A DNA stretch of 64,000 nt from the NCBI RefSeq assembly GCF_001263415.1, contig NZ_LGTE01000005.1:1-64000 (forward strand). The letters run 5' to 3'. The position numbers were made by a program, and so were the translations under genes. Source of the DNA: Thermincola ferriacetica (lineage in GTDB: Bacteria; Bacillota; Thermincolia; Thermincolales; Thermincolaceae). This document shows positions 17,876 through 23,874 of the stretch, piece by piece. Under the pieces are notes generated by a model. That model was not told the origin of the DNA. It worked only from the letters and a program-made list of their open reading frames with translations, and did not search any database. Positions within the stretch are counted from its first letter, which is position 1, and each line of letters begins with the position of its first letter.

Positions 17876-19324
17876 TTAGTGAACGGGGTTAGTACCAGCG
17901 TCAACAGTATTCCAGTAGAAGTCGTTGTTCTTCAGTTGTTCAGCCTTGGAGTCAGTATGGCACTTGTAGCAGACAGCCATGTTATAGTAACGCTTCAGAG
18001 CAGAAGATGCGTTAACGTCAGTACTTACACCCTGTTGATCGCGAGCATCCTTCATGATGCTGTTGTCTGTACCGTGTGCATAGTGGCAGGACAGACATAC
18101 CATGTTGGCGTTAGGAGTACCGTTAGCATCCGGCTCGCCAATCATACCGGCCTTAAGGCCTTGTACGATTTTGTGACGGAATGCCTTGGAGAAGGTACCG
18201 GTTTCAGTCTGAGCGCTGTTGGAGTTGTAGTCGGTATGGCAAGCAGCACAGTAAGCGTTTACGCCTTTCTGATAGCTGGTTACCTTAACTATAGGAATAC
18301 CGGCTACAGTTTGCAGCAGTTCTTCATTCATCTTAACAACAGTAGCAGGAGCTATGTCCATTTGAATGTCAGCAGGGTTAACACCATTCAGTACACCTTT
18401 GGGGTCGGTGAAGAAACCGCCACGGTAGTTAACTTCCAATACATCGTTCCAGGACTTAGATGGGTCGCCCGGATACTTGTAAGAAAATTGACCGGTTGCC
18501 GGATCCTTAACACGGATCTGGGTCCAGTAAACTTTCGGCTTACCATAAGTGTAACCGTAGAGCCATGGACCGGCAATAGCCTTACCGGCAGAATCTTTGG
18601 CAGTATATTTGCCAGTAGCTGAATCAAAAGCAACAGTAGCGTTAACTATCTTGGTACCACCCTGGTCAGGAGTACGGGTACCCAGACCGTTCGGGTTGTA
18701 GTGAAGTAGCCTGTCACTGTAGGAACCGTGTGGGCTGTGGCAGCTAGCGCAAGTGAAGTCCTTGCCCCAGGTGTTGGGATCAGTGCTGGTTCTGTTACCA
18801 CCGGGAGCTGCACTTACCTTCATAGCGCCGGTAGCCAGGTGGACGGAAGCACCGTTAGCAGGATCACCGCCGAAGGTACCGGCATTGGAAGCCATAGCAC
18901 CATCAGCAAATACGTTGTAGAAACCTAAAGTACCGTCATGGCATGCAGTACAGGTGTTGTAGATACCGTTCCTGAACAGTAATTGCCGGCCGGAAGCGGT
19001 GTGTGTCTGGTGACAGGAAGCACAGGAGTTGGTATCGTTGGCATATTCGCCGTGAGTTCTTTGACCGTTTTTGTTCTTAATTACAGTTGCAAAGCTTTCA
19101 GTAGTACCGGTAGCGCCTTCACCGGTTTTGTTGGCGTTAACCAGGCCGTTGGAGAGATCCCACGAATTAGTGAACTTAGTACCGCTAGTCTCATTTAATT
19201 GAGCGGTAAACTTGTCAGACGTGGAATCTGGTGGGTAATTACCAGGAGCAGCCATAGCTGCAGCTAAACCCACTGTAAAAAGAAGGGCCGCAGATAATGC
19301 CAAAGCTAAACCAAATTTTTTCAC
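17876..19324 (-). CDS. Secreted hexaheme c-type cytochrome, OmcS-like heme pattern
   Basis: 482 residues from a GTG at 19324, 10 nt after AAAGGAGG; a longer frame reaches 19393 but hides the signal peptide. The signal peptide is residues 1-26, ending AAAMA|A. Six CxxCH heme sites begin at Cys101, 125, 192, 359, 410 and 452. Their surroundings, CxxCHxxH at heme 1, CASCHSPHGSY at heme 3, CAACHTD followed by FRHK at heme 4, CLSCHYAH at heme 5 and CYKCH at heme 6, parallel the order in Geobacter OmcS. The N-terminus before heme 1 is about 75 residues longer. It is exported, with no membrane anchor or S-layer domain seen. Role in extracellular electron transfer is inferred. Confidence 0.88.
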   Translation of the reverse strand: MKKFGLALALSAALLFTVGLAAAMAAPGNYPPDSTSDKFTAQLNETSGTKFTNSWDLSNGLVNANKTGEGATGTTESFATVIKNKNGQRTHGEYANDTNSCASCHQTHTASGRQLLFRNGIYNTCTACHDGTLGFYNVFADGAMASNAGTFGGDPANGASVHLATGAMKVSAAPGGNRTSTDPNTWGKDFTCASCHSPHGSYSDRLLHYNPNGLGTRTPDQGGTKIVNATVAFDSATGKYTAKDSAGKAIAGPWLYGYTYGKPKVYWTQIRVKDPATGQFSYKYPGDPSKSWNDVLEVNYRGGFFTDPKGVLNGVNPADIQMDIAPATVVKMNEELLQTVAGIPIVKVTSYQKGVNAYCAACHTDYNSNSAQTETGTFSKAFRHKIVQGLKAGMIGEPDANGTPNANMVCLSCHYAHGTDNSIMKDARDQQGVSTDVNASSALKRYYNMAVCYKCHTDSKAEQLKNNDFYWNTVDAGTNPVH

Positions 19325-19402
19325 TTTTGTGTTTCCTCCTTTAGTACTTAAAGATAATTCTGAGAACTTGACCTTTGTCATGCCACCTTTCACCCCCTTT
19401 CT

Positions 19403-19549: not shown

Positions 19550-20557
19550 TTAAGACTGGTATACTGTTACACGGGCATTAGCGGTATCGGTAATATATAC
19601 GCGGCCCTGGTCATCAACATAGAGGCCGTTAGGTAGGGTAAATTGTTCATTATCCTCTCCCTGGCCGCCAAAGGAGAATATCTTTTTACCGTCTTTGTCA
19701 AAACCATAGATAAAGTGAGTCAGGTTGCTGACTACCAGAATATTGCCTTTTCTGTCTATACCAATACCTCGCGGGTTAACGAAAACAGAGTCGCCTTTAC
19801 CATCTTTGGAACCGTTGATAATCTTCATAAATTTGCCGTTTTTATCAAAGACCTGCACTCGCTGGTTACCCGTATCAACTACATAGATATTGCCATCCCT
19901 ATCGACAGTAACGGCATTGGGAGCCAGGAACTGTCCGGGTTCCCTGCCAGGCTTACCGATAGTCTTTAGGAGTTTGCCCTGCAAGTCAAAGACCAGTACG
20001 GCATGTTTTTTCACATCTGTTACATAGAGCTTGTTGTCATCGATAAACAACCCTGCCGGGGCGGCGATTATATTTTCCGAAGGTTTTTTCTCGGCAAAGT
20101 AATTCAGAAATTTGCCATCAGCATCAACTACAGAAATTGCACCTGTATAAAGGTCTGCTACATAGAGCTTCCCGTCTTTACCGGCTAACCCGTAAGGAAA
20201 CTGGAATTTCCCGGGTTCAGAGCCGTATCCGCCGAATATTTTTAAGGGATTCCCTTCATAGTCAAAAATCTGTACACGGTGGTTATTGGTATCACTGATA
20301 TAAATCTTGTTATCCATAACGGTTACTGCCATCGGCTTTTCAAATTCCCCACCGCCGAATTTACCGTAGATAACCTTTAGAAAAGTCGGTTGCCCGGTCA
20401 GATTTTGGGTCACTTTGGGTACTATTTCAAAAGGCGACTTATTCATCAGATAAGAATAACCGAAACCGATTACGGCAATCATAAACATCAACTGAATCAA
20501 CCAATAAACGTATTTACGTTTAATTTGGATCGGTCTTCTCTCGGCAATTGTAGTCAT
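19550..20557 (-). CDS. Membrane-anchored NHL-repeat beta-propeller protein
   Basis: 335 residues. An N-terminal transmembrane helix (about 19-37, LIQLMFMIAVIGFGYSYL) is followed by a six-bladed NHL propeller. Repeats carry the pattern (A/G)-V/I-D-xxGN-I/LYV-xDxxNxRVQVFD-xxGKF, seen for example at IYISDTNNHRVQIFDYEGN and IYVVDTGNQRVQVFDKNGK. The propeller should be outside the membrane. NHL proteins recur beside multiheme cytochrome genes in metal reducers; scaffold or assembly function is inference. A stable hairpin precedes the start codon. Confidence 0.9.
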   Translation of the reverse strand: MTTIAERRPIQIKRKYVYWLIQLMFMIAVIGFGYSYLMNKSPFEIVPKVTQNLTGQPTFLKVIYGKFGGGEFEKPMAVTVMDNKIYISDTNNHRVQIFDYEGNPLKIFGGYGSEPGKFQFPYGLAGKDGKLYVADLYTGAISVVDADGKFLNYFAEKKPSENIIAAPAGLFIDDNKLYVTDVKKHAVLVFDLQGKLLKTIGKPGREPGQFLAPNAVTVDRDGNIYVVDTGNQRVQVFDKNGKFMKIINGSKDGKGDSVFVNPRGIGIDRKGNILVVSNLTHFIYGFDKDGKKIFSFGGQGEDNEQFTLPNGLYVDDQGRVYITDTANARVTVYQS

Positions 20558-20628: not shown

Positions 20629-21288
20629 CTACTTCAAGCGGTTCAAAGCTTCCTGAGCATCTTTGAAATTAGGATCGTAATTCAGCGCCTCTTTGTACAT
20701 GGAAGCGGCGCCCTCTTTATCACCGCTCTTTTCTGCGGCTACACCGATATAATAAAGCACGTCGGCTGAACCGGGACGGTTCTGATTAGCCTTGTTTAAA
20801 GCCTTGAAAGCCTCATCATATTTGCCCATATCGGTATAAACAATGCCCATCATCATGAAGTTCTTGTAATCAAGAGGAGCCAGCTTGGTGGACTTAGCCA
20901 AAGCCTCAAGGGCATCGTCATAACGCTTCATGTCCTTATAAACCAAACCCATGTTGTAATAAGCATCAGCATACTTGGGGTCAAGATTTACAGCAATTTG
21001 AAACTGCTTTAAAGCCATATCATAATCTTTTTTCAGGTAGTAGGTATATCCCAGATTGACACGATTTTCAGGAACCCTAGGCTCAGCCTCGACCTTGGCT
21101 TCAAAGTAAGCCAACTGTTGATTGATACGGTCCTGGTCAAGGTTATTCCAGAAAAAGTTCTTACCAATCAGGAAACCTGCAGCAATAAATACAGTTGCGG
21201 CGAGCAATACAATAGCTATGGCTTGGAACAGGGTAAAAGTTTTTTCCGACGGTTGCTGAAATCCCTGAGCTGGTACAACAGAACTCAT
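20629..21288 (-). CDS. Membrane-anchored TPR protein
   Basis: 219 residues with one N-terminal transmembrane helix (about 20-44) and four TPR units from about residue 80, for example ADAYYNMGLVYKDMKRYDDALEAL and ADVLYYIGVAAEKSGDKEGAASMYKEAL. The domain faces the outside of the membrane. TPR proteins with similar anchors assist cytochrome maturation or assembly. The ATG lies 8 nt after GGGGG. It sits between the 12-heme cytochrome and the NHL protein genes. Confidence 0.9.
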   Translation of the reverse strand: MSSVVPAQGFQQPSEKTFTLFQAIAIVLLAATVFIAAGFLIGKNFFWNNLDQDRINQQLAYFEAKVEAEPRVPENRVNLGYTYYLKKDYDMALKQFQIAVNLDPKYADAYYNMGLVYKDMKRYDDALEALAKSTKLAPLDYKNFMMMGIVYTDMGKYDEAFKALNKANQNRPGSADVLYYIGVAAEKSGDKEGAASMYKEALNYDPNFKDAQEALNRLK

Positions 21289-21341: not shown

Positions 21342-22505
21342 CTAGGAAGTACGGTGACAGCTTCCACAAAGGTCTTGCACATGACATTGCAAGCATTTTT
21401 TCTCCAATCTGCCGTACCTGGGCGGTACGGGTATCGGATGGCTTTTGCGCCAGTCATATTTATGGATACTGGGGTGGCAGGAGGAACAAGCCCCTTTACT
21501 GGTTGTTCCCGGCACATCGGTACGTGGACTATGGCAAACCATACATTTCTCGGTATTCGGCCCTTTATTAGCCGCTATACCGTGTTCAAAGGCCCAGTTA
21601 TCGTTATGGCTGGGCGGCCTTTTCCTGTGGCAGTCGGAACAATAAGAGTTATTGGCTGCATAACTGGCGGCAGTGGTTTTCTTTTCAGCGCCTATCAGCC
21701 GGTCCAGGTACTGGGAAACAATGTCCTGCTCTTTGTCTTCCAGTTCCAGAGACTTGCCGCCATTAGCCGTAATGAAATCATGACAGGTAGCACAATAATC
21801 TATCGATTTTCGGGCCAACTGGCCGTGGTTTACTTTGAAATCTTTACGCCGGTGGGAATCTGGCATGATATTGCCCGTATGGCATGCCTCACAGGCAATT
21901 GTCACATTTCTGCGCTGGTGGCAGTCCATACAAAGTTCCATCTTCGGCTGAGTGTATTCCTGGCTCATCAGTTCCCGGCCCTTTTTCAAATCCCAGTTGG
22001 AGAAATCGCCTCCCATAGTTTCACCCCGGGTGGCTATCTTGCCGTGAGCCACGCCCTGGTGACATTTAATACATGGAACTCCCTGTTTGGCATGTTTATC
22101 GTGCGGTATATATAAATCCCCCGTAGGAGTAATTTTCCGTTTCAGTGAATGGCACTGCAAACACCTGGAATCAGGTAATTCCTCGGTCATGATTATCGGT
22201 AATTCGTAGGTCTTTGTAAGATACATGTATAGTTCTTTAGTAGCCACAACTTTGTGCTTCATTTCATTTACCAGCCCGGAATCAACGTGACACTTTACAC
22301 AACTGATCTGGCTGTGAGAAGATGCCTGCCAGGTCACATATTCCGGTTTCATAATATGGCAGGTCTTACAAAAATCCGGAGTAGAAGTCAATGCGGTAGC
22401 TCCATACATTCCGACAAACAGAAACAACAGTACCCCTGTTAAAATCAGAACATACTTAGCAACAGCCTTCCCCTCCGGCACTAATTTTTTTATATTAATT
22501 TGCAT
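21342..22505 (-). CDS. Membrane-anchored dodecaheme c-type cytochrome, NapC/NirT-like N-terminus
   Basis: 387 residues. An N-terminal transmembrane helix (about 18-38) is followed directly by CKTCH and CVKCH in a NapC/NirT-like context (TPDFCKTCHIMKPEY). I count twelve CxxCH motifs in all, spread to the C-terminus (last one LCGSCHRTS). The N-terminal part suggests menaquinol oxidation and the long C-terminal part a heme wire across the cell wall. It is the first gene of the cytochrome operon; GGGGGAACTGTAG precedes the ATG. The function is inferred from family and context. Confidence 0.9.
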   Translation of the reverse strand: MQINIKKLVPEGKAVAKYVLILTGVLLFLFVGMYGATALTSTPDFCKTCHIMKPEYVTWQASSHSQISCVKCHVDSGLVNEMKHKVVATKELYMYLTKTYELPIIMTEELPDSRCLQCHSLKRKITPTGDLYIPHDKHAKQGVPCIKCHQGVAHGKIATRGETMGGDFSNWDLKKGRELMSQEYTQPKMELCMDCHQRRNVTIACEACHTGNIMPDSHRRKDFKVNHGQLARKSIDYCATCHDFITANGGKSLELEDKEQDIVSQYLDRLIGAEKKTTAASYAANNSYCSDCHRKRPPSHNDNWAFEHGIAANKGPNTEKCMVCHSPRTDVPGTTSKGACSSCHPSIHKYDWRKSHPIPVPPRYGRLEKKCLQCHVQDLCGSCHRTS

Positions 22506-22810: not shown

Positions 22811-22839
22811 AAAAAAGCCGCGGGATTAGTTCCCGCGGC
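22811..22839 (-). terminator. Intrinsic terminator of the response regulator gene
   Basis: GCCGCGGGA/TCCCGCGGC (22831-22839 with 22817-22825), 9 bp, 5-nt loop, followed by six U's on the minus strand. Its 5' half overlaps the end of the coding region, and it separates the regulator from the cytochrome operon. Confidence 0.93.
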
Positions 22840-23506
22840 GGTCATTTACCGCTTTTGAATATGCCATGAGGTTGTTACGTACGGCATAAGCTGCCGCTTC
22901 TGCCCGGTTACTGAAATTAAGTTTGCTTAAAATGCCGCTGACATAGTTTTTGATTGTATTATTACTTAACGTCAGAATCTGGGCAATCTCCTTGTTGGTC
23001 TTACCTTCCGCAATCAAGCTCAGGATCCTTCTTTCCTGCGGATTAAGTAGGGATACATCCTTGGGCTGAGGTTTTGGCTGGCCGTTTTTCACCCTGTCCA
23101 AAACCTTGTTGGTAATGGAAGGATCCAGCAACGCCTTTCCTTCCAAAACCATATGAATTGACCTAATCAGTTCTTCACTGTTGAACTGTTTTAGCAGCAA
23201 CCCGTCTACACCGGCGGAAATACAGGAAAAAATCGCTTCATCATCATTACCGGTAACCAGCATAATGACTTTAATTTTCGGTACCGACTCTTTTATTTTC
23301 CGGCAGCATTCAATACTGTTGCCGTCAGTCATCCTGGCTTCCATTATAATAACATCAGGCTGTAATTCTTCAGCTTTTCTCAGCACTTCGTGGCAGGAAC
23401 CTGTTTGTCCAACTACCTCAAACTCATGGGAACATTGGATAATGAAACTGATTCCAAGCCGTACAACTTCGTGGCTGTCAGCTATAAAAATTTTAGGTTT
23501 AGCCAT
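22826..23506 (-). CDS. NarL/FixJ-type response regulator with Glu at the phosphoacceptor position
   Basis: 226 residues from the ATG at 23506 behind GGGGG; the longer frame has no family support. The receiver domain (1-118) aligns with NarL but has Glu56 where the phosphorylated Asp should be (DVIIMEARM), and Ser11 in place of one acidic-pocket Asp, while Asp10, Thr85 and Lys106 remain. The C-terminal LuxR helix-turn-helix reads LNPQERRILSLIAEGKTNKE and NNTIKNYVSGILSKL. Glu can mimic phospho-Asp, so activity may be constitutive or set by another ligand. No kinase gene is adjacent. It could control the downstream cytochrome operon. Confidence 0.9.
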   Translation of the reverse strand: MAKPKIFIADSHEVVRLGISFIIQCSHEFEVVGQTGSCHEVLRKAEELQPDVIIMEARMTDGNSIECCRKIKESVPKIKVIMLVTGNDDEAIFSCISAGVDGLLLKQFNSEELIRSIHMVLEGKALLDPSITNKVLDRVKNGQPKPQPKDVSLLNPQERRILSLIAEGKTNKEIAQILTLSNNTIKNYVSGILSKLNFSNRAEAAAYAVRNNLMAYSKAVNDRRGN

Positions 23507-23874
23507 TCTACATACCCCCGTATATCTTCTGTTTTGGAACATATTGTGAATGTTAGTATTACATGGTATCGTACAATAGCCTAAGTAAATATACATTATT
23601 ACTAAAGTTACCATACTTTTCGACATGTAAATATAAATCCCTTTTAATATTTATAAATTTGTTTTGTGTAATTAATGGAACAGTTAGAAAATTACGCCGC
23701 TGGTTGCTCCGTATTCGTTGATTGAATTTCCAGTTCAATCATCCAAGAAGAGGCATATTGTGGGAAATACTGTTCATTTTTTTTTAGCGGAATTTGTTAT
23801 CAGAAGAATAATCTGAATCAATCCAGCAAATCCTATAGTCGTTCGGGAAATTAAAATTCAGGAGGTGACATAAC
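23507..23874. other. Divergent intergenic region
   Basis: About 370 bp between the regulator (minus) and the Gln-rich gene (plus). It is AT-rich and contains the inverted repeat GATTGAA-tttccag-TTCAATC (23720-23740), a possible operator. No strong promoter match stood out. Confidence 0.4.

Follow-up and report, generated by a model that had tools for sequence, protein, structure and literature searches.

A predicted OmcS-type hexaheme cytochrome, paralogous to CwcA, and its four-gene operon in the Gram-positive bacterium Thermincola ferriacetica

The window, i.e. the whole 64,000-nt stretch of Thermincola ferriacetica DNA that was analysed, belongs to contig C5 of a 3.18-Mb genome. An open reading frame on its minus strand (17876-19324) encodes, as judged from the frame and its motifs, a hexaheme c-type cytochrome (482 aa, ~457 aa mature) of the type of OmcS (GSU2504, the nanowire subunit of Geobacter sulfurreducens, 6EF8) and CwcA (see below). 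The start codon is a GTG at 19324, with a Shine-Dalgarno sequence AGGAGG on its 5' side (19335-19340, minus strand). Residues 1-25 (19250-19324, minus strand) make up a signal peptide devoid of a lipobox, for which we infer cleavage after AMA-25. It is the sole hydrophobic segment of the protein and Pfam searches revealed no wall-anchor domain, in agreement with the initial annotation, which had described a signal peptide and no anchor. The Pfam families that are matched comprise Paired_CXXCH_1, Cytochrome_C7 and the MtrC/MtrF II-IV domain. Only three of the stop-to-stop frames longer than 60 codons in the window contain any CxxCH motif, namely this one, the one encoding the neighbouring 12-heme cytochrome, and a frame with a single motif, so the occurrence of six motifs in one frame cannot be attributed to chance.

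The six motifs start at residues 101, 125, 192, 359, 410 and 452 and read, together with their flanks, CASCHQTH, CTACHDG, CASCHSPHG, CAACHTD (with FRH384 further on), CLSCHYAH and CYKCH. On the minus strand they correspond to the sites of heme 1 (CASCH, residues 101-105, 19010-19024), preceded by the invariant H91 and followed by H108 (19001-19003), which lies three residues past the heme-1 histidine; heme 2 (CTACH, 125-129, 18938-18952); heme 3 (CASCH, 192-196, 18737-18751), with PHG after it and H162 and APGG before it, as in OmcS; heme 4 (CAACH, 359-363, 18236-18250), followed by FRH384; heme 5 (CLSCH, 410-414, 18083-18097), followed by H417; and heme 6 (CYKCH, 452-456, 17957-17971). The initial annotation was correct in all details of this pattern, including His108, FRH384 and the exact limits of the reading frame, and the longer N-terminus that it noted before heme 1 is real, as ~65 mature residues precede His91 in the subfamily to which the protein belongs. 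As for the heme spacing, which it had described as long between hemes 2-3 and 3-4 in both proteins, there is no close agreement with OmcS: successive motifs are 24, 67, 167, 51 and 42 residues apart, compared to 38, 93, 99, 89 and 72 in OmcS. Another feature of the subfamily is a C-terminal tail of 26 residues beyond heme 6.

The region between hemes 3 and 4 accommodates an insertion of ~135 aa (approximately residues 210-345; 18290-18697, minus strand), predicted to form a compact beta domain. Its core (approximately residues 226-325) was modeled by AlphaFold2 with pLDDT values mostly above 90, and it has no match in Pfam. The model of the whole protein is weak (pTM 0.53, mean pLDDT 53) and unreliable in its heme-binding parts, which AlphaFold2 failed to fold, and its comparison with known structures by Foldseek returned no significant match, the hits being meaningless similarities of beta structures, with OmcS absent from the 50 matches listed. 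A TwoAYGGAY RNA motif (RF01731; 17479-17637; 49.1 bits, i.e. above the gathering score) was detected on the plus strand, opposite to the hexaheme gene, in the intergenic region that follows this gene.

Upstream of the hexaheme gene and on the same strand lie genes encoding an NHL-repeat beta-propeller (19550-20557; 335 aa; Pfam NHL, E-value 5e-33), a TPR protein (20629-21288; 219 aa; Pfam TPR), both with one N-terminal membrane segment, and a membrane-anchored NapC/NrfH-type cytochrome with 12 CxxCH motifs (21342-22505; 387 aa; Pfam Cytochrom_NNT, E-value 4e-19). The latter shares 37% identity over 353 columns with ImdcA (E-value 4e-75), and it is likely to be a menaquinol oxidase. The operon is preceded by a LuxR-type response regulator (22826-23626, assigned by Pfam), with a hairpin that resembles an intrinsic terminator by a consensus match only (22817-22839, minus strand) between the two.

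The order 12-heme cytochrome, TPR, NHL, hexaheme recurs on contig C3 of the same genome, as well as in other Bacillota, namely in the genomes G009, G274 (three times) and G360. Analysis of the genomic neighborhood, in a sample biased to paralogue-rich genomes, revealed an NHL gene directly upstream and on the same strand in 49 of the 53 six-heme family members that have at least 900 bases of upstream sequence, and a TPR gene also upstream in 32 of the 40 six-heme loci with longer flanks, compared to an NHL gene in only 2 of 10 members with more than six hemes. Conversely, all 12 NHL genes found in the T. ferriacetica genome directly precede a multiheme cytochrome. Other Bacillota families (L084, L085, L087 and L088) contain the hexaheme domain fused to additional motifs (10-19 CxxCH) and lack the NHL gene.

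Related arrangements are known from other bacteria. OscD, encoded in the omcS-companion (osc) cluster of Geobacter, is a beta-propeller-like protein, and the osc cluster can be likened to the window operon by gene type, as both link a beta-propeller gene to an OmcS-type hexaheme gene, whereas a prolyl isomerase of the OscH kind is encoded in the osc cluster and absent from the four genes described here. OscD has been proposed to influence the morphology of the OmcS nanowire (cited in PMC13194489). In Dethiobacter alkaliphilus, an iron respirer of the Gram-positive type, NHL and TPR genes are likewise found near genes for multiheme cytochromes, and a role in assembly or orientation was suggested for their products (PMC10376724), however those clusters are not tied to an OmcS-type hexaheme or to a fixed gene order. 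NHL genes are also present in the Uet cluster (PMC10734462). As far as the literature that we searched goes, the TPR-NHL-hexaheme operon type has not been previously defined as a unit.

The T. ferriacetica genome encodes several other cytochromes relevant to this analysis. Its OcwA (nine hemes, 525 aa) differs from that of T. potens (PDB 6I5B) at 3 of 496 residues, the same number of differences as reported (PMC7911101). ImdcA (Tfer_0070; ten hemes, 348 aa; C1:67185-68231) has the N-terminus MGIRD, in accordance with the published GIRD (PMC7911101). Downstream of it lies the six-heme, 356-aa CwcA (Tfer_0075/TherJR_1122; C1:73134-74204), an assignment based not on the locus tag but on the order of the genes, the number of hemes and the GIRD match. 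CwcA is located on another contig (C1), which rules out its identity with the window gene. CwcA and a 14-heme gene are closely followed by the gene of a very large cytochrome (C1:76700-82003; L029:14700-20000), which has 49 or more CxxCH motifs and is possibly the 58-heme T. ferriacetica protein of the literature. The family of the window protein has two more hexaheme members in this genome, of 1118 aa (L033:5489-8842) and 861 aa (L034:5447-8029), which are encoded on contigs C13 and C14; their N-terminal parts are long and contain Big_5 and fn3 domains, as if an electron carrier had been joined to an adhesin. The genome holds several OmcS-type hexahemes with NHL and TPR genes as fixed partners, and seven of its gene clusters are headed by a TPR gene.

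In a tree of 45 relatives (a quick tree, with a long OmcS branch), the window protein and its orthologues form a clade of 14 rows (support 99), separate from the clade of CwcA (8 rows; support 100), and on these sequence grounds we regard the window hexaheme as a paralogue of CwcA and not its orthologue. Both proteins show the same order of the six motifs, the twelve invariant histidines discussed below and the TPR-NHL-hexaheme gene order, and each operon includes an ImdcA-type cytochrome. They are ~29% identical over the matched part, and CwcA lacks both the N-terminal extension and the long insertion between hemes 3 and 4. The AlphaFold2 model of CwcA is also weak (pTM 0.58, pLDDT 52); in the Foldseek search 6EF8 was its only match at an E-value up to 10, with a non-significant value of 0.29. 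CwcA was modeled on OmcS at 18% identity by Faustino et al. (2021), who proposed a stacked wire as the means by which electrons pass through the 20-80 nm of peptidoglycan of a Gram-positive cell; its expression yielded an insoluble form only, which was never refolded (PMC7911101). The idea of a wire through the wall is therefore not new, as it has already been published for a paralogue from the same species.

The relationship to OmcS emerges at the level of the family. A profile of 45 diverse Bacillota hexaheme relatives, searched against the PDB (177,635 distinct sequences), reports OmcS (the sequence of 6EF8, identical over 407 residues) as the top match with an E-value of 4.2e-24; residues 8-406 are aligned as a single stretch with hemes 1-6 collinear, while the runner-up, 6r2q (5e-8), is matched in separate pieces, and OmcE (7tfs) obtains a value of 0.002. 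A profile of 18 CwcA-type proteins likewise ranks OmcS first in the PDB (6e-16), and hhalign aligns the family profile with OmcS over 283 columns (E-value 1.7e-23). Against the family profile, scores do not exceed 14 bits for OcwA (2.4 bits), for ImdcA and for hexahemes of other types. The comparison with OmcS, OmcE and OcwA that had been recommended for this protein hence places OmcS on top, and a best match to a non-filament family, named at that time as the result that would speak against the OmcS likeness, did not occur.

As a control, the OmcS sequence between the heme motifs was shuffled by three procedures, with 500 shuffles each (1500 in total); two of these procedures additionally preserved the motif flanks or all histidines. 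Against the family profile the real OmcS scores 88.6 bits and the highest-scoring shuffle 66.4 bits, which shows a similarity extending beyond the heme motifs. A 7-heme and a 17-heme neighbour reach 60-64 bits, hence part of the signal is common to related multiheme repeats. When used alone, the window protein did not match 6EF8 (phmmer against the PDB, E-value up to 10), an eight-row profile of its orthologues did not find OmcS in the PDB at the same threshold, and hhalign aligned the orthologue profile with OmcS in the region of hemes 5-6 only; these results indicate that the resemblance is remote. Direct searches with OmcS found nothing convincing in the class and nothing in plasmids and viral contigs. 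The OmcS likeness claimed in the initial annotation is thus confirmed by the profile of 45 relatives, end to end, and is not reproduced by the single sequence or by the orthologue-only profile. We consider the window hexaheme to be homologous to OmcS, with the homology, as detected by sequence comparison, visible only with the family profile. Motifs shared with OmcS include APGG before the heme 3 site (CSSCHDPHG in OmcS), CANCHTD with a later RH, CLSCHRAH and the C-terminal CNKCH, in addition to the six collinear hemes and the matching histidines; the differences concern the extra N-terminal, beta and C-terminal segments, the spacings and the Gram-positive envelope.

All 45 relatives share twelve invariant histidines: the six proximal ones and H91, H108, H162, H199, H384 and H417. 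In a joint alignment eleven of them fall on OmcS His13, 16, 51, 110, 144, 147, 243, 257, 332, 335 and 404, H91 is three columns off OmcS His2, and all twelve follow the order in OmcS, while OmcS histidines 53, 63, 139, 247 and 309 have no counterpart. This set fits the need of six bis-His hemes predicted from the sequence, and a conserved distal histidine for each heme would leave no open coordination site for catalysis. H108 is aligned to OmcS His16, which we take to be the ligand that OmcS provides across the subunit interface. Heme 5 of OmcS is completed by a histidine from the adjacent subunit (PMC7096707). By its position, His108 is a candidate ligand for a heme of a neighbouring subunit.

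The interpretation we favor, and to which we give about an even chance, is that the window gene encodes a secreted electron-transfer cytochrome, homologous to OmcS and paralogous to CwcA, which most likely stacks head-to-tail to conduct electrons through the wall. In this mechanism, the membrane-anchored 12-heme cytochrome would take electrons from menaquinol and hand them to the hexaheme protein, the six bis-His hemes of which would act as a conducting chain that takes the electrons out across the wall, with the subunits most likely stacked as in OmcS. The membrane-anchored TPR and NHL proteins would probably aid assembly, export or tethering, cf. the proposed action of OscD on OmcS. Stacking of the subunits is argued from homology to a protein that forms filaments, and we consider polymerisation of the window hexaheme plausible. 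Homology to OmcS is not a proof of a wire, since OmcS alone among the four OmcS-type hexahemes of G. sulfurreducens is known to form one (PMC12977616). Against a filament speaks also the lack of a direct sequence match to OmcS for the protein and its close orthologues, together with the weak AlphaFold2 model of the heme regions and the absence of an OscH-like prolyl isomerase from the operon, and the additional segments at both termini could prevent subunits from packing end to end.

A non-polymeric protein with the same role in electron export and the same OmcS-type core is a serious possibility, which we place somewhat below an even chance. Here, a monomer or short oligomer located under or in the wall would pass on to other cytochromes the electrons received from the 12-heme cytochrome, and all six distal histidines would be used within the chain. 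The six conserved non-proximal histidines would be enough for six bis-His hemes in one chain, and the additional terminal segments and the beta insertion, as well as the single known wire among the four Geobacter proteins, are consistent with such a relay. However, OmcS, with a matching set of histidines, borrows one ligand from the neighbouring subunit, and H108 occupies the corresponding position; moreover, CwcA, the closest studied relative, is insoluble, and the NHL propeller gene parallels OscD. We regard as very improbable that the protein works as a terminal reductase like OcwA, NrfA or the octaheme tetrathionate reductase: weak matches to decaheme and MtrC/MtrF domains and the presence of OcwA in the same genome point in this direction, but OcwA hardly scores against the family profile and the possible distal histidine for every heme leaves no open site. 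There is similarly little to recommend a heme protein with an adhesive or structural function at the cell surface, in which the hemes would be used only locally and the beta insertion would bind a wall polymer or a mineral. The confident prediction of this insertion and the Big_5 and fn3 domains of the C13 and C14 paralogues are countered by the lack of a Pfam match for the insertion and by the operon, whose ImdcA-type cytochrome, probably a quinol oxidase, points to electron flow.

The evidence gathered at the level of the family gives the OmcS-based model of CwcA a more solid footing in sequence. A broader and rather doubtful extension, which we offer tentatively, is that the TPR-NHL-hexaheme operons of Bacillota represent a monoderm nanowire system sharing ancestry with the omcS-companion system of Geobacter, with a family of OmcS-homologous subunits, several to a genome, each assembled by a membrane-anchored propeller and a TPR protein of its own and often supplied by a separate quinol-oxidising cytochrome; ancestry would then be shared despite there being no outer membrane to cross. 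With respect to the multiplicity of these operons, the Bacillota genome G274 contains three full sets of the four genes adjoining one another (L090:370-17801). No c-di-GMP-I-GGC riboswitch was found at the window operon; on contig C3, the gene before the paralogous operon (L030:10367-11179) has an N-terminus resembling that of a response regulator, and upstream of both lies a c-di-GMP-I-GGC riboswitch (C3:119372-119478, i.e. L030:11372-11478, minus strand).
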